A stretch of 20,223 bases of DNA from a virus: IMG/VR virus record IMGVR_UViG_3300009408_000045, positions 1-20,223 of that record; one strand, written 5' to 3'. Shown piece after piece: positions 6,152-20,223 of this stretch. The notes under the pieces were generated by a model that was given only the letters and a program-made list of their open reading frames with translations, did no database searches and was not told where the DNA came from. The number at the start of each line of letters is the position of its first letter. Position 1 is the stretch's first letter. Position numbers and translations under genes: made by a program.

Positions 6152-6955
6152 TCAAGGCTGCGTTCCACCATTAGCAGGTGTTTTTTTGTATCTGTCGGCG
6201 ATAGAGTTCCCAGCTTTAAACCCAGCAGCAGCCCCACTTGTCAAGTTCTGCAAATTACGGGTAGAGATTGCTTGAGATTGTCCACTGGCAGCAAGAGCAT
6301 TAGATACAGCACTATTACCTGCTTGCTGTGAAGAAGATACATTACCAAGTCTTGCAGCTTCTGCGGCTGATTGGGCAGAGAACATGTTCTGCACATCCTG
6401 CTGAGAGAGTCCTTGCAAGAACCCAGCTTCTGCCTGTTTAACACCAGCGTCCTGTACAGCCATATCCCTACCTCCAATAACAGCTTGGTCACGTAAAGCT
6501 GCTGTCTGTTGGTTAGCAAATTGTTGGCGTAAAGCTTGTTGCATGATAGCCCCACTAGAGCCTGTAAGCCCTGTAGCGCCTATCTGAGCCTGTAGGCTCT
6601 GCTGTTGTTGAGCTTGCTGTTGCTGTAGTTGTGGTAAACGACTGCCTAAGTAAGCTTGTTGATACTGGGAGGCTGCTGCTGGGTCAACCCCTAAGCCACC
6701 TGCCACTAAGCCCCCTAGCTGTGAGCGAGCGTCTGTTGTTGTCTGTGCTGTCCCTGCTACTGGATTGTAAGTGAAGTCTTTACTTGTCGCAGTGCCTAGA
6801 GGGGATGTGAATGTCCTTGCGTCTACCCTTGCTCGCTCTGCGGCAGCTTGCCTTGCTGCCCTGTCCGCTGCTCGATTAGCAGCCGATGCTGATTTGTTAG
6901 CACTGTAAATGCTTCCTGCTGCTCCTACTGCGGCAGCCGCTACGCCCCAAGGCAT
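6152..6955 (-). CDS. Internal virion / DNA transfer protein, Ala/Gln-rich
   Basis: 267 residues. The N-terminus is small and hydrophobic (MPWGVAAAAVGAAGSIYSA) and runs into an Ala/Arg-rich helix. A Gln-rich tract follows at about 110-130 (LPQLQQQQAQQQQSLQAQ), then repeated Gln/Ala/Ser helices up to a basic tail. Podovirus internal proteins (P22 gp7-like, T7 gp14-like) often have this small-residue N-terminal membrane-active segment and low-complexity helices. The gene is the first of three consecutive ejection-type genes. Its ATG shares one base with the stop of the 2-oxoglutarate oxygenase gene, so the oxygenase is physically tied to virion-gene expression. Confidence 0.75.
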   Translation of the reverse strand: MPWGVAAAAVGAAGSIYSANKSASAANRAADRAARQAAAERARVDARTFTSPLGTATSKDFTYNPVAGTAQTTTDARSQLGGLVAGGLGVDPAAASQYQQAYLGSRLPQLQQQQAQQQQSLQAQIGATGLTGSSGAIMQQALRQQFANQQTAALRDQAVIGGRDMAVQDAGVKQAEAGFLQGLSQQDVQNMFSAQSAAEAARLGNVSSSQQAGNSAVSNALAASGQSQAISTRNLQNLTSGAAAGFKAGNSIADRYKKTPANGGTQP

Positions 6956-7512
6956 TACTTAGCTCCCTTGTTTGTTTCAATACAAATAATCATAGTAATC
7001 CTATCCTCGTCACTCTCATTAGTCACCCAATGAGTTTCTTGATTGTTAAACCAGTATAAATCACCAGTCTCTGTTTCTAAAGAGCCTTCCTCAAAATGAA
7101 AGGCTTGCCCTTCTGCCGCTGCAATCTGCAATGCAAACTTATCAAAGTGTTCTGCATGCCACCCACCATCTACATGAGGCTGACATGTGCAGCCAGCAGG
7201 GATGCGTGTAATTAACACTCCACCAAGACGTTCCCCTTCTACTAACCTCATAACATCGAACACAATGTCTTTTATCTGAGGGAGAGCTGAATATGCAGGA
7301 TACCAGACAGCTTCATGCTCATTATTAAACTCTGCCAAGTCGCCATTGTAGTTGCTAAAGTCATTATAACGCACCCAAATATCATCTAGCCCATTATGTG
7401 CATATTGCTCTAGGCGAGCTTTTTGTTGATTCCATAAGAAAGGTTTTTTATGTAACTCTTGTACTAGACCAGAAACGTCCACACCCTTTAATAGCAGTTG
7501 CATATTCTTCAT
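6955..7512 (-). CDS. 2-oxoglutarate/Fe(II) dioxygenase, aspartyl/asparaginyl hydroxylase-like
   Basis: 185 residues. The facial triad of this superfamily is visible as H113 and D115 in QPHVDGGWH and the distal H161 in GDLYWFNNQETHWVTNES. R171, ten residues after the distal His (DEDRITMII), sits where these enzymes bind the 2-oxoglutarate carboxylate. The arrangement GDLYWFNN-x3-H-x-V-x-N-x-SDEDR is typical of the aspartyl/asparaginyl beta-hydroxylase family. Expected chemistry is hydroxylation of a protein side chain or small molecule using O2 and 2-oxoglutarate; the substrate is unknown. It overlaps the sulfotransferase-like gene upstream and an ejection-protein gene downstream by 1 bp each, so it is made with virion proteins. 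All catalytic residues are intact. The first residues may be optional because an in-frame Met follows at codon 4. Confidence 0.88.
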   Translation of the reverse strand: MKNMQLLLKGVDVSGLVQELHKKPFLWNQQKARLEQYAHNGLDDIWVRYNDFSNYNGDLAEFNNEHEAVWYPAYSALPQIKDIVFDVMRLVEGERLGGVLITRIPAGCTCQPHVDGGWHAEHFDKFALQIAAAEGQAFHFEEGSLETETGDLYWFNNQETHWVTNESDEDRITMIICIETNKGAK

Positions 7513-7991
7513 TAGACACTCTCCATCATCTTGAGAGACTCTAGGTTGTAGTCTCTGAACTCATCTGTGATTACAAAATCTCTTAGTTGTAAATATCTTA
7601 CTTCATTAAAAACATCATTAGGGCGTAGATACTCCCAAACACCTCTTGCTACTCCTGCGTCTGAAACTACCCTCTCAAAATCTACACTTGGGTATTCAAG
7701 GCTATCAAACTTCTCTAAACTCTCTGCACTCATCTCAGGCATTCCTAAGCAGTTCAGTGAACTATTAACATCTTTAACACTGCGTAACACTTTCAGTGTA
7801 GGGCATTTGAGGGATTCTATGAAATAAGGGATTAAGTAAGCCCCTGTACACACTATGCTCTTAAGGTTCAAGACATCTTTAGGAGGAAGCCTCCCGAAAG
7901 GGTCGTGAATACACGTATCTTCGTCTGTGGACAACCAGTTAGCCATCCAAGCCGTTCCGCTTCTTGGTAGCCCTATCACACATAAATTCAT
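7512..7991 (-). CDS. Sulfotransferase-like P-loop protein
   Basis: 159 residues. The N-terminus has VIGLPRSGTAWMANWL (residues 5-20), closely resembling the PAPS-binding 5'-phosphosulfate loop of sulfotransferases (PRSGTTWL). A second match is KVLRSVKDVNSS, where R70 and S78 have the Arg-x7-Ser spacing of the 3'-phosphate-binding site. Known members transfer sulfate from PAPS to sugars, tyrosines or small molecules. At 159 residues it is much shorter than most cytosolic sulfotransferases (roughly 250-300), so it may be a minimal or degenerate version or another P-loop enzyme such as a nucleotide kinase. A His-Asp-Pro-Phe-Gly stretch (29-33) may contribute to the active site. It overlaps the 85-residue gene by 4 bp and the oxygenase gene by 1 bp. 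Confidence 0.72.
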   Translation of the reverse strand: MNLCVIGLPRSGTAWMANWLSTDEDTCIHDPFGRLPPKDVLNLKSIVCTGAYLIPYFIESLKCPTLKVLRSVKDVNSSLNCLGMPEMSAESLEKFDSLEYPSVDFERVVSDAGVARGVWEYLRPNDVFNEVRYLQLRDFVITDEFRDYNLESLKMMESV

Positions 7992-11395: not shown

Positions 11396-12487
11396 CTAAA
11401 GAGTAGCACCGAATACTGCTGCTGAGGCAGATTCGCCCAAGCTTTCTAGGCAATACTCACCCTCAATCATAAACTTACGAGAAGAACCGTCACGCGCAAG
11501 CTCTTTTACGTTGATTGGACGTAAGAAAGCTGTACGGAACATTTTCTCATCTACGATTGCTACAGTACCTTCTGGAGTCCAACGGTCATATTTAACTTGC
11601 ATATTACCGAAGTCAGATTGGTAGATGTCAACTGTTGCAGTCAGTACTTTGTTCTGGTCAATTACTTGGCGTAAGCCAGCAGCGAAGCCAGAGATAGCAC
11701 GCTTCTGCTTACCAGAAACATAGACTGCATTTGGACTGCCACCTGCATCTTTAGCAAGCTGGATACCGTCATTCATTGCTGCTTCTGTCAAAGGAGTAGG
11801 AACAGTGTAGACAACGTATGTAGAAGTGGCATCAGGTGCAACGTCCCATGCAGCTACAGTTAGTACCAAAGCGGCAACACCAGTCACTACACGGTATTGA
11901 CCAGCGCCAGTGCCACCAGTGATTAACACATGGTCGCCAATAAGAGCAGCACCAGCGGCAATGCTGATAGTGGTTGCTGCGCCAGCAGTCGCAGTACCAG
12001 CCAAATCTGCGCCAACACCGTTAGTTAAAGATACACGGTTAGTAGATGCGAAGTTGTAGAAGCCACCAGAACGGCGAGCCGTACCTATAGCACCAGCAGA
12101 CTTAGTACCCTGCCACAATACACGTTCCATATCGCGTGCCATTTCTTTTGTTGCTTTCTCTACTTGATGAGAATACTCAGAAGCAACACCAGCTTTCAAT
12201 ACAGACTCTTGTGTATCAGAAATCTGACCAGTTTTACGGCTGATTTGGCAATAGTTGTTCAAACGTGAACGTTGGGACAATGTGCCATAAGTTGCAGCAG
12301 AACCTTCAATCTGTGCATTGTCAGAAGGTGCGTCAAGTGATTCAGTCATCCACTCATGCAGAGTGCCTGTTGCTTTTGTTTTAGCGATAGAGGAAAGAAA
12401 CGGGGTTTCTTCCACAGCTACGCGAGTTACTACGTCAATTAGGTCTTCTTTGTTACCTGACTGAGAGTAGGTTGATAATACTGCCAT
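11396..12487 (-). CDS. Major capsid protein
   Basis: 363 residues. The N-terminal third (GNKEDLIDVVTRVAVEETPF, TGTLHEWMTESLDAP, then RLNNYCQISRKTGQISDTQ) is characteristic of the SU10-type major capsid family (DUF5309, HK97 fold), and the helix HQVEKATKEMARDMERVLWQG fits the spine helix. Residues about 158-230 form a small-residue beta-rich segment (VLITGGTGAGQYRVVTGVAA, then YVVYTVP) that looks like an inserted domain. The C-terminal part (AVYVSGKQKRAISGFA to EGEYCLESLGESA) fits the A-domain end of the fold. It follows the scaffold gene by 12 bases and is closed by a terminator. Role: icosahedral shell subunit. Confidence 0.9.
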   Translation of the reverse strand: MAVLSTYSQSGNKEDLIDVVTRVAVEETPFLSSIAKTKATGTLHEWMTESLDAPSDNAQIEGSAATYGTLSQRSRLNNYCQISRKTGQISDTQESVLKAGVASEYSHQVEKATKEMARDMERVLWQGTKSAGAIGTARRSGGFYNFASTNRVSLTNGVGADLAGTATAGAATTISIAAGAALIGDHVLITGGTGAGQYRVVTGVAALVLTVAAWDVAPDATSTYVVYTVPTPLTEAAMNDGIQLAKDAGGSPNAVYVSGKQKRAISGFAAGLRQVIDQNKVLTATVDIYQSDFGNMQVKYDRWTPEGTVAIVDEKMFRTAFLRPINVKELARDGSSRKFMIEGEYCLESLGESASAAVFGATL

Positions 12488-16045: not shown

Positions 16046-17506
16046 TCAATATCCTATCAAGCTATCGTTGTATTCATAATTATCATCTTCTGCTGGGTTG
16101 TAAGCTGTGTACGTGAAGTTGGGCGGCATTGCATGTCTTAGGGACATAGCTGCATAACGTGTGGCATCCATCAAATCGTCTCTCACCTTCACAATCTTAC
16201 CGTCTTTCCTGTAGTAGCCACGATACTCTCTAAGCCAGTCATCTAAATGCTCAAACACTTGGAAGCGTCCTGTCTTCATCCTATCAAGCATTGACATAAT
16301 ACCAGCTTCAACGCCGTTTGTACTTTTACCTGTCAATGGGTCGGGCGGATTCTTAAAGCATTCAGCAGCCATATTCAAGCCTTCTGTAATGTAGTTCTGC
16401 TTTAGTGTCTCACCAGATGTCTTATCGTGTATCCCAGCATCATGTGGGTATTGGGTTGGAATCCACTTTCCGCCCCTAGCCCTGATATTATGTCCATGCA
16501 CTCTAGGGGTCTCTCTACTCTTGGTATAACAATCTACAACGTAAACAACGTCCTCATCTTTGTCCCAAGCTAAATGCACCCAAGCGGTAGGATGGTCATA
16601 ACCAAAGTCTAAAGCTGCTACATGCGCCCAATGGTTAGGGATGTCAAATGCTTCGCATGTAAGGTCATCTTCTGCAACTGGAAAAACCATGCCACTACCA
16701 AGCGTTGGCTGACCCATACTACGCATCTTACGTTCATGGGGAGGGAGAGCGTCTAGCATTTGCTGCTTAACTTCCTCTGTAATATGTGGGGCATCATCCC
16801 ATGTGGCATTCATTATCATCTGCCCTTTCTTGATGCTTTCCTGATACTGCCTTACAACATCTGTAACACCGTTCTCTGGTGTAAATGTCAAACTAACAAC
16901 ACCACCTCTATCAACTGTGGAACGTAAAGCTTGAGAATAAATATCTTGTGGAGGTTCTTCATCAAGGGCTACGAAATCTGCCGAAAACCCCATCCAACCT
17001 TCTTTACCACTATCGTAAGAAATAAAACTTATCTTACTCCAGCCCCCTGAAATGTGCTGCACTAGAACGGACGAAAGGGCATCAGGGATACCAGCCTTAC
17101 GAGCTGTCTTACCAAGCTTTGAAGCTGGGATGAACGCCGTTCCCCTTTGTGATGGGTCTGACGGCTCTCCTAGGAGCTTCGTCTGTGCAACGTCCTTAAC
17201 CTGTTGGTTAGTTTTACCGCCACACACAATGAGCGTTGGTCTATCCCACTTACGCCCTTCGTACCATTCTGGGTATTCGCCTGTAGCGTGAGCCACAACT
17301 TCCCACGCCATAATGTCACTCTTGCCAATACGATTAGCTGCCATAAGAGCTTTCTGCTTGTTCTCTGTGGAAGCTGCACAAAAGGCTTTCTGATAATCAT
17401 ACGGGCTATATTTGTAAAACTGCTTGCCCGACTCTCGGCGTTCTTTTTCTTCAAGAAGCTGAATCAACTCAAGCTTTTCTTCGGCGGACAGTTTCTCTAT
17501 ATTCAT
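16046..17506 (-). CDS. terL: Terminase large subunit (packaging ATPase and nuclease)
   Basis: 486 residues, a usual length. The ATPase domain shows Walker A at residues 56-63 (AANRIGKS), Walker B with catalytic Glu at 178-183 (FVALDE, D182/E183) and a coupling motif SLTFTP at 205-210. The nuclease domain has its first metal Asp in VAALDFGYDHPTA (D300) and further acidic residues in YPHDAGIHDKTSG (D356) and RDDLMDATRYA (around D443-D447). Role: drives DNA into the procapsid and cuts it. The ANRIGKS and LDEEPP words resemble P22-type (headful) terminases, but the packaging mode is not proven here. Its ATG overlaps the small-subunit stop by 4 bp. Confidence 0.95.
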   Translation of the reverse strand: MNIEKLSAEEKLELIQLLEEKERRESGKQFYKYSPYDYQKAFCAASTENKQKALMAANRIGKSDIMAWEVVAHATGEYPEWYEGRKWDRPTLIVCGGKTNQQVKDVAQTKLLGEPSDPSQRGTAFIPASKLGKTARKAGIPDALSSVLVQHISGGWSKISFISYDSGKEGWMGFSADFVALDEEPPQDIYSQALRSTVDRGGVVSLTFTPENGVTDVVRQYQESIKKGQMIMNATWDDAPHITEEVKQQMLDALPPHERKMRSMGQPTLGSGMVFPVAEDDLTCEAFDIPNHWAHVAALDFGYDHPTAWVHLAWDKDEDVVYVVDCYTKSRETPRVHGHNIRARGGKWIPTQYPHDAGIHDKTSGETLKQNYITEGLNMAAECFKNPPDPLTGKSTNGVEAGIMSMLDRMKTGRFQVFEHLDDWLREYRGYYRKDGKIVKVRDDLMDATRYAAMSLRHAMPPNFTYTAYNPAEDDNYEYNDSLIGY

Positions 17507-17973
17507 TCGCCCACTATCTCAGCGTCAATATATTCTGTTTTCTTAATTAAAGAAGCTAGTCTATTATTAAGCTCATCGTCAGACGTGTCGCTCACTTTCA
17601 TCTCAATCTGTGTAGCTGCCTTATAGCCACTAAGTTCTAATACAGCTATAGCTGCTTTAAGTCTTACAGCTTCCTGTGTCTTTGGGTTGCTTAATAGCTC
17701 GTCTATAACTGTTGTAGCTTTAATAGCTGTGTTAGACAAATGCTGCCTTACGGCTGTAGCAATTCGCGTGTCATACTTCTTACGTAACTTCGACACTTCA
17801 ACATTCACTGTAGCTGAGGAAGCGTTAGGATAAAGCTTCTCGTAAGCCTTCTTACTGCCCATACCATCTATAAAGAGCTGCAACCACTCCTCATGCTTAG
17901 GATTAACTTTAGGAGAGGACTTACGAATTGTACGTCCATCCTTGTCATAAGGGCTGTTAGGCTTAGCTGGAAT
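17503..17973 (-). CDS. terS: Terminase small subunit, probable ATT start
   Basis: The body HEEWLQLFIDGMGSKKAYEK then LYPNASSATVNVEVSKLRKK looks like the DNA-binding helix-turn-helix of small terminases, followed by helices and the tail IKKTEYIDAEIVGE. It sits directly before the large subunit with an ATGA overlap. The only standard start in frame is TTG at 17883, which would cut off the HEEW part of the first helix and has GAGGAG only 3 bases away. The frame is open upstream to a stop at 18030-18028 with no ATG, GTG or other TTG. An ATT at 17973 has AAGGAG 6 bases upstream, giving about 156 residues beginning (M)PAKPNSPYDKDGRTIRKSS. Alternatives are the TTG start or a sequencing error. Role: recognises the packaging site on phage DNA. 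Confidence 0.78.
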   Translation of the reverse strand: MPAKPNSPYDKDGRTIRKSSPKVNPKHEEWLQLFIDGMGSKKAYEKLYPNASSATVNVEVSKLRKKYDTRIATAVRQHLSNTAIKATTVIDELLSNPKTQEAVRLKAAIAVLELSGYKAATQIEMKVSDTSDDELNNRLASLIKKTEYIDAEIVGE

Positions 17974-18206: not shown

Positions 18207-18235
18207 AGTGTAGACCTTATTAGAGGAAGTGTCAA
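18207..18235 (-). promoter_or_regulatory. Leftward sigma70-type late promoter
   Basis: On the minus strand TTGACA (18235-18230) is followed after 17 bases by TACACT (18212-18207). The -35 is a perfect match and the -10 matches at 4 of 6 positions. It points to the terminase genes and would give a leader of about 230 bases. It is the best-placed promoter for the whole late block. An AT-rich stretch further down (around 18122-18132, with TATAAT on both strands) lacks a convincing -35. Confidence 0.65.
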
Positions 18236-18242
18236 ATACTGT

Positions 18243-18302
18243 AACCACTTATCTCACATTCCCTTATTTATCAACCACTTAACACCTATGTATTAAAGGT
18301 GT
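18243..18302. repeat. Direct and inverted repeats upstream of the late promoter
   Basis: AACCACTTA occurs exactly twice, at 18243-18251 and 18273-18281, 30 bases apart, about three helical turns, so both copies face a similar side of the DNA. Immediately beyond is an inverted repeat ACACCT - 9 bases - AGGTGT (18282-18302). All lie just upstream of the -35 of the leftward promoter, at roughly -45 to -100 from its expected start. This is a natural site for an activator or repressor. Confidence 0.5.
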
Positions 18303-18491
18303 CCTCTTAACTGTGCCTACGCTAGGGGGCGATTTCTACCCCTCTATCTGTACCTTGCCTATATTTTAAGCAGCCTCTTAATGAGGATTTATTAGGCAGC
18401 TCTAAAGGGCATGTTTGAAATCTCTGTGAAGAAAAAGTCTGGGTATACCCCTACTTCCTCTCCCACAAAGCCGCTACCCCCCCACTTACTT

Positions 18492-18518
18492 ATATAATAA
18501 TATGTTAATATAATAATA
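18492..18518. repeat. AT-rich direct repeat, possible unwinding element
   Basis: ATATAATAATA is present twice exactly (18492-18502 and 18508-18518), separated by TGTTA. The surrounding 35 bases are almost pure A/T, in contrast to the C-rich run just before it (18470-18485). Easily melted AT-rich repeats next to a cluster of short repeats are usual at replication origins. Confidence 0.5.
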
Positions 18519-18542
18519 GTATTCTAAGGCTTTTAAACACTT

Positions 18543-18659
18543 CAAGCTATGCATTGCTATTACTATCAAGCTATAAGGGCTTAGCGTAGCTTGTGTGAGC
18601 TTGTGAAGGGGCATATTGTAAGCTATGACAAGCTTTTAGAAGCTGAACAACAAGCTATG
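18543..18659. repeat. Cluster of CAAGCT/AGCTTG words (iteron-like)
   Basis: Six copies of CAAGCT or its complement AGCTTG fall within about 115 bases: CAAGCTAT at 18543, 18567 and 18651, CAAGCT at 18629, and AGCTTGTG at 18588 and 18598; a near copy, AAGCTATG, is at 18620. Copies lie in both orientations. A tandem 11-base repeat, AAAGCTTATAA, follows at 18716-18726 and 18726-18736. Together with the AT-rich repeat on its left this is the strongest candidate in the window for a replication origin or a protein-loading site; the protein is not known. Confidence 0.5.
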
Positions 18660-18683
18660 TATGGGCTTGTGGGCTTTTTCTAG

Positions 18684-18715
18684 GGGAGAAAGAAAGAGAG
18701 AGGGCTTAACAACCC
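18684..18715 (-). terminator. Weak candidate terminator of the small leftward gene
   Basis: On the minus strand GGGTT-GTTA-AGCCC (18715-18702, with one U-G pair) is followed by TCTCTCTTTCTTTCTC. The stem is only 5 bp and the tail is pyrimidine-rich rather than pure T, so termination would be partial. It lies 45 bases beyond the stop of the gene at 18760-18948. Confidence 0.35.
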
Positions 18716-18759
18716 AAAGCTTATAAAAGCTTATAACTGCTTACATGCTACCCTTATAG

Positions 18760-18948
18760 CTACTTAATAAGCTGAAACAAGCCTCTATCAATATCACTTA
18801 TAATAAAACTACTAGCTAACCTTTTAAGCTCTAAAGTTGTACAATACCTATAATTAGGTAATGATTGTAAAAACTCTATCTTTTCTTGTACAGCTTGCTT
18901 TCTTGTAAGCTTCTTACTGCTGTAATGATTCTTAATAAATAATGCCAT
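18760..18948 (-). CDS. Small unknown protein with its own promoter
   Basis: 62 residues: a basic N-terminus (MALFIKNHYSSKKLTRKQAV), a helix with LQSLPNYRY, and a C-terminal helical half (LELKRLASSFIISDIDRGLF). Two helices joined by a short turn are likely, and small basic phage proteins of this kind are often regulators or host inhibitors, but no motif is recognised. The start is supported by AAGGGATTAG just before the ATG, and a leftward promoter lies 40 bases upstream. It stands alone in the control region between late and early blocks and has a weak terminator after it, so it may be expressed independently of both. Confidence 0.65.
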   Translation of the reverse strand: MALFIKNHYSSKKLTRKQAVQEKIEFLQSLPNYRYCTTLELKRLASSFIISDIDRGLFQLIK

Positions 18949-18985
18949 CTAATCCCTTGTAGCTTGTCGAGTAGTATCTAACGCA

Positions 18986-19263: not shown

Positions 19264-19446
19264 ATGATGGATACTAAAATACGTGAAACCAATATATATA
19301 CAATCATAGCAATATATCGCGACGGACTAGCTACAGAGGCGGAATGTGTTGCCAGCTTGGCATTGCTTAATGTACGCGGTGCATTCAAAGGGCTGGATTT
19401 CATCGGTTATGATTATGTTAATCAAGCATGGCTTAAAACTGAATAA
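19264..19446 (+). CDS. Small early protein of unknown function
   Basis: 60 residues, mixed alpha/beta in composition, e.g. ETNIYTIIAIYRDGLATEA and NVRGAFKGLDFIGYDYVN. No recognised motif. Tandem ATG codons occur at 19264 and 19267; AAGGGG ends 3 bases before the first and 6 before the second, so the real start is probably 19267, giving 59 residues. It is the first gene of the rightward block, between two rightward promoters, which suggests early, strong and possibly independent expression. Small first genes of phage early regions often alter host functions, but no role can be read here. Confidence 0.7.
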   Translation: MMDTKIRETNIYTIIAIYRDGLATEAECVASLALLNVRGAFKGLDFIGYDYVNQAWLKTE

Positions 19447-19450
19447 AAGC

Positions 19451-19479
19451 TTGACACTGGTTATAGGACTTGTTATGAT
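19451..19479 (+). promoter_or_regulatory. Strong rightward early promoter
   Basis: TTGACA (19451-19456), 17-base spacer, then TATGAT (19474-19479) with an extended -10 TGT. This is the best match to the sigma70 consensus in the window. It lies in the 50-base gap between the first two plus-strand genes and would start transcription around 19486, 35 bases before the ribosome-binding-site-supported ATG at 19521. Confidence 0.8.
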
Positions 19480-19520
19480 GGCGCACTACTTAATTTTTAA
19501 TGACGACAAAGGGGCTTGAT

Positions 19521-19820
19521 ATGATTATATTGAACGGTAAGAAGTTTGCAGAGAGTGAAGATGAGTTTACTAGCAGCTTGTTTGAATCAGGCGGAACGTG
19601 TGTTGGCTATGCTAGAAAGAATAAATGCAGCGTGACATTGTATAATATGCAACATGAAAAAATAGGTGTTATCAATAAGCATGGTTGTCTATGTAAAGCT
19701 ACTAAAAAAGACTGTGGGAGGTGGTGGTACAGCTTCGCCACTATTGAAGAAGTAGGCGAGTACACAAGCTATATGCAGGCACAAGATGATACTGCCGCAG
19801 CTCTGGCTATTGCAGCTTGA
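19521..19820 (+). CDS. Small early protein, Cys-containing, unknown function
   Basis: 99 residues from the ATG at 19521, which has AAAGGGG 6 bases upstream. An ATG at 19500 in the same frame has no ribosome binding site and is very near the expected RNA start, so it was not chosen. The protein opens with MIILNGKKFAESEDEFTSSL and has Cys residues in GGTCVGYARKNKCSV and KHGCLCKATKKDCGRWWYSF, possibly a small metal-binding or disulfide unit. The C-terminus is Ala-rich and acidic. The middle (VTLYNMQHEKIGVINKHG) resembles small beta-rich phage proteins of unknown role. It is driven by the strong promoter at 19451. No function can be assigned. Confidence 0.75.
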   Translation: MIILNGKKFAESEDEFTSSLFESGGTCVGYARKNKCSVTLYNMQHEKIGVINKHGCLCKATKKDCGRWWYSFATIEEVGEYTSYMQAQDDTAAALAIAA

Positions 19821-19849
19821 TAAACAATAACAACAAAAGGGGCAACAAC

Positions 19850-19900
19850 ATGAATAACGAATTATTAGAGCATTATTATAAAACAAAAGGGAAGGTATAA
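19850..19900 (+). CDS. Possible 16-residue leader peptide
   Basis: A tiny open frame, MNNELLEHYYKTKGKV, has AAAAGGGG placed 7 bases before its ATG, the same signal as the neighbouring real genes, and ends 2 bases before the next gene's ATG. It could be a leader peptide coupling translation to the next gene, or the ribosome binding site may be incidental. Its end contains the AAAGGGAAGG site used by the next gene. Confidence 0.4.
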   Translation: MNNELLEHYYKTKGKV

Positions 19901-19902
19901 CT

Positions 19903-20223
19903 ATGAAAATCAAGAAAGTACACACTAACACAACTTATAAGAGCTACCCAACGGATAGCGAAGGCAATCGCTACGGCGGCGGCTACGGCACGCTTACTGA
20001 ATGCAGCGATGCTATAAAAAACAGTCGTTACCTGAGCGAAGATAAACATTATGCAGGCAGCTTCATTGCTGAAAAAGTATATGCTGATAACGCAAGAATG
20101 CCCGACAATAAAGAAATGATTGCAAGCTATAATGTGGTAGCGGCTTGCAAGGGTGGGTTATCCGAAGTCGTAACATTGCGCCTTTACATGGGGCGAAGTT
20201 CGAAGGCGAGTAAAGTGTATGCT
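19903..20223 (+). CDS. Early protein, partial, runs off the right edge
   Basis: The frame opens at ATG 19903 with AAAGGGAAGG upstream and stays open for 107 codons to the end of the window. It begins MKIKKVHTNTTYKSYPTDSE and has a Gly/Tyr-rich stretch (NRYGGGYGTLTECSDAIKNS), then KHYAGSFIAEKVYADNARMP and KGGLSEVVTLRLYMGRSSKA. The likely fold is mixed alpha/beta, but the family is not recognised. It follows the 16-residue frame by 2 bases and belongs to the same early transcript as the 99-residue protein. Confidence 0.7.
   Translation, partial: MKIKKVHTNTTYKSYPTDSEGNRYGGGYGTLTECSDAIKNSRYLSEDKHYAGSFIAEKVYADNARMPDNKEMIASYNVVAACKGGLSEVVTLRLYMGRSSKASKVYA

Follow-up and report, generated by a model that had tools for sequence, protein, structure and literature searches.

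The window, by which we mean the whole 20,223-bp stretch of DNA that was analysed, is IMG/VR virus record IMGVR_UViG_3300009408_000045, which is classed as linear and has no end repeats. Its leftward genes form the packaging and structural block of a podovirus, in which TerS, TerL, portal, major capsid and tail-region proteins were recognised from the ORF map and PHROG families. On the other side of a long junction lie small early ORFs that run rightward. The late block is headed by terS, whose start is probably an ATT codon at 17973 behind the SD AAGGAG. The ORF list starts the gene at a TTG (17883), which removes a stretch of TerS that can be aligned with LUZ24-type TerS, and the codon score of the terS frame is weak (z -0.3). 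Translated from the upstream start, TerS gave tblastn matches to Rembedalsseter, UFV-P2, JB8 and Bruynoghevirus TerS (E 1e-6 to 4e-3), together with a weak match to the TerS family in PHROG. Family searches with the first rightward early ORF (19264..19446) returned no match. Measured from terS (~17973) to that ORF (19264), the junction is 1,290 bp long with 37% GC, and in it and around it lie the following features.

17503..17973, minus strand: terS, the first gene of the late block, identified by tblastn to LUZ24-type TerS and by PHROG, with the frame open upstream of the TTG
18207..18235, minus strand: candidate late promoter, TTGACA-17-TACACT, matching 10/12 of the consensus and positioned like those of tf, LUZ24 and UFV-P2
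18491..18526, no strand: AT-rich block, for which nearest-neighbour stability is the lowest of any 35-bp duplex in the window
18543+, 18567+, 18588-, 18598-, 18629+ and 18651+, both strands: CAAGCT words, core CAAGCTA(T)
18578..18667, plus strand: imperfect hairpin (z -2.6) that pairs the words at 18588 and 18651
18617..18745, no strand: 28-nt imperfect inverted repeat that takes in the AAAGCTTATAA repeat
18716..18736, no strand: AAAGCTTATA tandem repeat, two copies
18760..18948, minus strand: putative 62-aa ORF with a good ribosome-binding site, within the junction
19264..19446, plus strand: first rightward early ORF, 60 aa, with the SD AAGGGG, from the ORF list
19451..19479, plus strand: candidate early promoter, TTGACA-17-TATGAT with TG, matching 11/12 of the consensus

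TerL is 52% identical to that of Pelagibacter phage Baldr, 47-48% to those of the Vibrio VP506/KIT05 group and 42-43% to those of PaP3-type Pseudomonas phages, with alignments to LUZ24-type and Vibrio VP506/KIT05-type phages spanning 87-91% of the protein. The major capsid protein matches the same broad phage group. Judged by TerL, TerS and capsid, the fragment is a LUZ24-type podovirus. At the DNA level, no relatives of the window were found among the phages or viral contigs searched, a set from which very close records may have been missing. Within IMG/VR only TerL had relatives, at 37-49% identity, and none was found there for TerS, the early ORF, capsid, portal or tail protein. GTDB genomes yielded no TerL relative, and Rfam and tRNA searches of the window gave no matches. 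The major capsid gene (11396-12487, minus strand) encodes 363 aa, compared with 318 aa in LUZ24, and aligns to its relatives in two pieces; the greater length and the two-piece alignment suggest an internal insertion. Within the structural block, 6955-7991 (minus strand) encodes an aspartyl/asparaginyl beta-hydroxylase-like protein (PF05118) and a neighbour that matches a PHROG 'hydrolase' family and, weakly, a sulfotransferase.

A preliminary description, made from the letters of the DNA, had seen an A/T segment built of two copies, and these are indeed present, ATATAATAATA lying at 18492-18502 and again at 18508-18518. A or T occupies up to 36 of 40 bases in this block, and our promoter scan, which scores matches to the sigma70 consensus, found a possible weak leftward -10 there in TTTAAA-16-TATTAT (18537 to 18510). 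The tandem repeat reported beside the words was likewise recovered, with AAAGCTTATAA occurring twice at 18716-18736; the repeat is AAAGCTTATA at a period of 10, and its two 11-mers have one base in common. The region had also been called noncoding. This holds for 18492-18736, which no ORF of at least 50 aa overlaps, but a plausible 62-aa ORF adjoins it on the right (18760-18948) and therefore the interval from 17.97 to 19.26 kb is not all noncoding. Phage records held no relatives of this ORF. In a first scan the hairpin appeared exceptional (z about -4), but this was discarded, as the region ranked only 10th of 502 on a whole-window grid. In tf, LUZ24 and Bjorn, the three phages compared in this respect, the mean folding scores of the junction equal those of the rest of the same genome. 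An intrinsic terminator at 18650-18680 (plus strand) was rejected as well, such sites occurring at close to the shuffled rate (2 vs 1.5).

Six CAAGCT/AGCTTG words in both orientations had been described, and we recovered all of them, four forward and two reverse, within 114 bp (18543-18656). They are spaced irregularly, at 24, 21, 10, 31 and 22 bp, and share a core of 6-9 bp, with a CAAGCTA extension in four of the six and a CAAGCTAT extension in three. The density of CAAGCT reaches 45.8/kb in 18530-18660 as compared with 1.6/kb in the late genes and 6.2/kb in the early ORFs, and the window contains 42 copies in total where 22.7 +/- 4.8 are expected. An equal density elsewhere, which the preliminary description had named as a refutation, is not seen in these window-wide counts, but that outcome does not discriminate between an origin and other functions. 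The clustering of this named word exceeds all shuffles. Because CAAGCT was picked after looking at the sequence, we applied a correction for any 6-mer: one with six copies in 121 bp is found in 2-10% of Markov simulations, depending on model order (orders 1-4, trained on the noncoding segment). Moreover, the six words are not independent, because 18588- and 18651+ pair as the two arms of a single imperfect hairpin. The centres of the words lie close to multiples of 10.5 bp (R 0.82, p 0.011), a regularity noticed only afterwards. AAGC and AAGCT words are enriched more widely than the cluster, across the whole noncoding stretch and the early region. Among the early ORFs, 19354-20128 is also dense in CAAGCT (6 in 963 bp, z 5.7), and a copy in the early region overlaps the -35 box of the candidate promoter at 19451.

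Promoter-like sites were not clearly above shuffles (10 vs 6.2 +/- 2.5), and one IHF-like site was seen at 18269. That the candidate promoters of the junction are used we infer from their matches to the consensus.

By synteny and the homology of the flanking genes, the cluster is placed in the late/early junction of LUZ24-type phages, and this homologous position is the strongest result of our analysis. A mostly noncoding junction of 1.7-2.1 kb between terS and the early genes is present in LUZ24, tf, UFV-P2, PaP3, Bjorn, BroderSalsa and KIT05. Two late and four early promoters are found in that of tf (1,707 bp) along with a terminal repeat of 186 bp (PMC3517423), that of LUZ24 (1,880 bp) is annotated with two promoters of each kind and a repeat of 184 bp, and the order of promoters in UFV-P2 is as in these two phages (PMC3890496). 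In tf and LUZ24 the late promoters point leftward and the early promoters rightward. The junctions of PaP3 and KIT05 carry tRNA genes on the late side. A long junction is missing from the marine IMG/VR TerL relatives and from Baldr, where the divergent intervals are short.

The window shares with the LUZ24-type phages (Bruynoghevirus LUZ24/PaP3, Krylovvirus tf and Vicosavirus UFV-P2) homologous TerL, TerS and capsid, a terS that heads the late block, small early ORFs running the opposite way and a mostly noncoding junction between the two, with candidate promoters in both directions, an AT-rich element on the late side and repeated words that are specific to each phage. However, its terS and terL are not separated by a lysozyme gene, it lacks the ATATCCC cut motif, its repeated word is a different one, a possible ORF lies inside its junction, and that junction, at 1.29 kb and 37% GC, is both shorter and richer in A/T. 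With the 50-kb genomes of the Vibrio VP506/KIT05 group the window has in common a TerL that is ~47% identical, a long AT-rich junction (1.8 kb in that group) beside the terS side, and the absence of the LUZ24-type cut motif, which is missing from the KIT05 junction too; that group differs in its late-side tRNA and endolysin genes and in its repeated words, TAATAA and ACTATA.

Repeated 6-mers place the junctions of the group at rank 1-5 among 15-39 segments of their own genomes. The observed/expected ratio there is 1.28-1.49, against about 1.15 elsewhere and 1.30 in the window, with the value for the longer junctions being the best among several sub-windows and hence subject to a small bias. 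The repeated words differ by lineage. In LUZ24 and PaP3 the words TCTTAA/CTTAAG cluster within 121 bp, in a nested hairpin close to an AT-rich late promoter; the arrangement strongly resembles the AT block and clustered words of the window. In relatives, therefore, clustered words next to an AT block accompany an annotated role in late transcription. The nested hairpin of CTTAAG words, GGCTCTTAAGA...TCTTAAGAGCC, lies at ~44993-45072 in LUZ24 (offsets 412-492 from terS) and recurs in PaP3. It is directly downstream of an annotated late promoter, and judging from this position the late transcripts of LUZ24 and PaP3 may begin with it. Further afield, short CCTAAAG repeat arrays flank the terminal repeat of T7. 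These resemble the window in being short degenerate repeats near early promoters at a genome-end junction, but they keep a single orientation, and no genome end could be placed in the window by the cut motif.

Taken together, we consider it slightly better than an even chance that the segment works as part of the control and genome-end region at the late/early junction of this LUZ24-type podovirus. The leftward late genes start with terS (~17973) and the rightward early genes at 19264. The junction of characterised relatives combines leftward sigma70 late promoters, a short direct terminal repeat, where terminase cuts the replicated concatemer, and rightward early promoters. The AT block would then be an easily melted element of a leftward late promoter, and the CAAGCT words a short cis-acting array in the place where the relatives keep their terminase cut region. 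From this position we infer that terminase, or a regulator, may bind the words.

At the ends of the terminal repeat in the Pseudomonas members, the cut sites have a shared core, which reads AATATCCCCCC at the left site and GGGAATATCCCTTGA at the right one, the two being separated by 177-197 bp (drawn from tf, LUZ24, PaP3, UFV-P2 and Rembedalsseter); ATATCCC is common to the cut sites of all five. PaP3, originally reported as a cos phage, has such a pair, in agreement with the terminal repeats of phage Delta (PMC8540360). ATATCCC is absent from the junction of the window. With a weight matrix of the LUZ24-type cut sites, the best scores in the window were 12 and 15 bits, both in coding DNA, whereas real sites score at least 23, and the placing of terminal-repeat ends by this motif was rejected, no site in the window coming near the real-site score. 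As the LUZ24-type cut motif is absent, a role in packaging is suggested by position, with the CAAGCT words lying 570-683 bp from terS and the left cut sites of the relatives about 400-860 bp from it. Two further candidates were set aside: ATCCCTTG at 18952 proved to be the 62-aa ORF's ribosome-binding site in reverse, and the 12-base match that TATACCCC at 18444 has in LUZ24 does not lie at the cut site of that phage. No tf-type nick sites (TACTRTGNC) were found. The TerS of PaP3 binds DNA in a sequence-specific manner (PMC7672466) and so, by analogy, a TerS-binding site near terS would be reasonable biology.

It is also possible, if somewhat unlikely, that the words are cryptic simple sequence, a by-product of drift by slippage and duplication with no binding function of their own. 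The spread of AAGC and AAGCT across the junction and early region would fit this, as would the fraction of simulations in which some word clusters as strongly, the repeat-rich junctions of the relatives with different words in each phage, and folding that is ordinary for the window. Drift accounts less readily for the packing of the named word into 114 bp and its possible helical phasing, and the CTTAAG cluster common to LUZ24 and PaP3 indicates that such an element is kept there.

The proposal of the preliminary description, a replication origin, we regard as doubtful. An initiator would have to bind the CAAGCT words and melt the adjoining AT block, upon which primase-helicase would be loaded. 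The clustered words do adjoin the weakest duplex of the window, and in this combination of several short-word copies and an AT-rich, unwinding-type element (18491-18526) the region resembles the iteron origins of lambda ori and plasmids, compared here by features only; the phasing of the words on the helix, found post hoc, is in keeping with it. However, iterons are even copies of ~17-22 bp in the same orientation, whereas the window has a core of 6-9 bp in both orientations at irregular spacing and no linked initiator gene. No initiator gene was found in the fragment, the replication genes of which lie outside it, and the relatives have a primase/helicase and a DNA polymerase with a T7/PolA-like annotation, but none of their genes is annotated as an initiator. 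DnaA boxes (TTWTNCACA) had no match beyond 17.9 kb in the window, although phage origins need not contain them. The preliminary description had also looked to GC skew. The skew does turn near the cluster, but the turn coincides with the flip in gene orientation, where a minimum is expected, and thus cannot count for an origin. Among eight relatives the cumulative minimum lies near the junction in PaP3, KIT05, BroderSalsa, VA-RY-3 and HTVC106P but not in tf, LUZ24 or Bjorn; the turn follows gene orientation in most relatives, and skew was dropped as evidence. A limited, targeted literature search found no mapped replication origin for the LUZ24-type group. The sequence gives an origin no specific support, though one may be present.

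Slightly less likely again is an operator array, in which a phage or host regulator would bind the words and time late against early transcription: the words do lie between candidate leftward and rightward promoters and an early-region copy overlaps a -35 box, but 300 bp separate them from the nearest strong late-promoter candidate and 800 bp from the early one, and no regulator gene was found in the fragment. Our estimates for control junction, drift, origin and operator overlap, since one junction may hold several functions. Lastly, we raise as a very improbable idea that LUZ24-type phages keep, next to the AT-rich element of a late promoter in the terS/early junction, a phage-specific array of short inverted words with two roles, one in starting replication and one in marking the packaging end. 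If this were true, replication and concatemer cutting would be tied to one site, the window having the AGCTTG version of the array and LUZ24/PaP3 the CTTAAG version.

In summary, an uncultured phage fragment has been placed in the LUZ24-type group. The junction between terS and the early genes is a fair place to test for an origin, a case for which sequence alone is insufficient. The stretch rich in repeats and in A/T is real and is in an ordinary kind of place for LUZ24-type phages, in which an origin-like layout can arise within a known promoter and genome-end junction.
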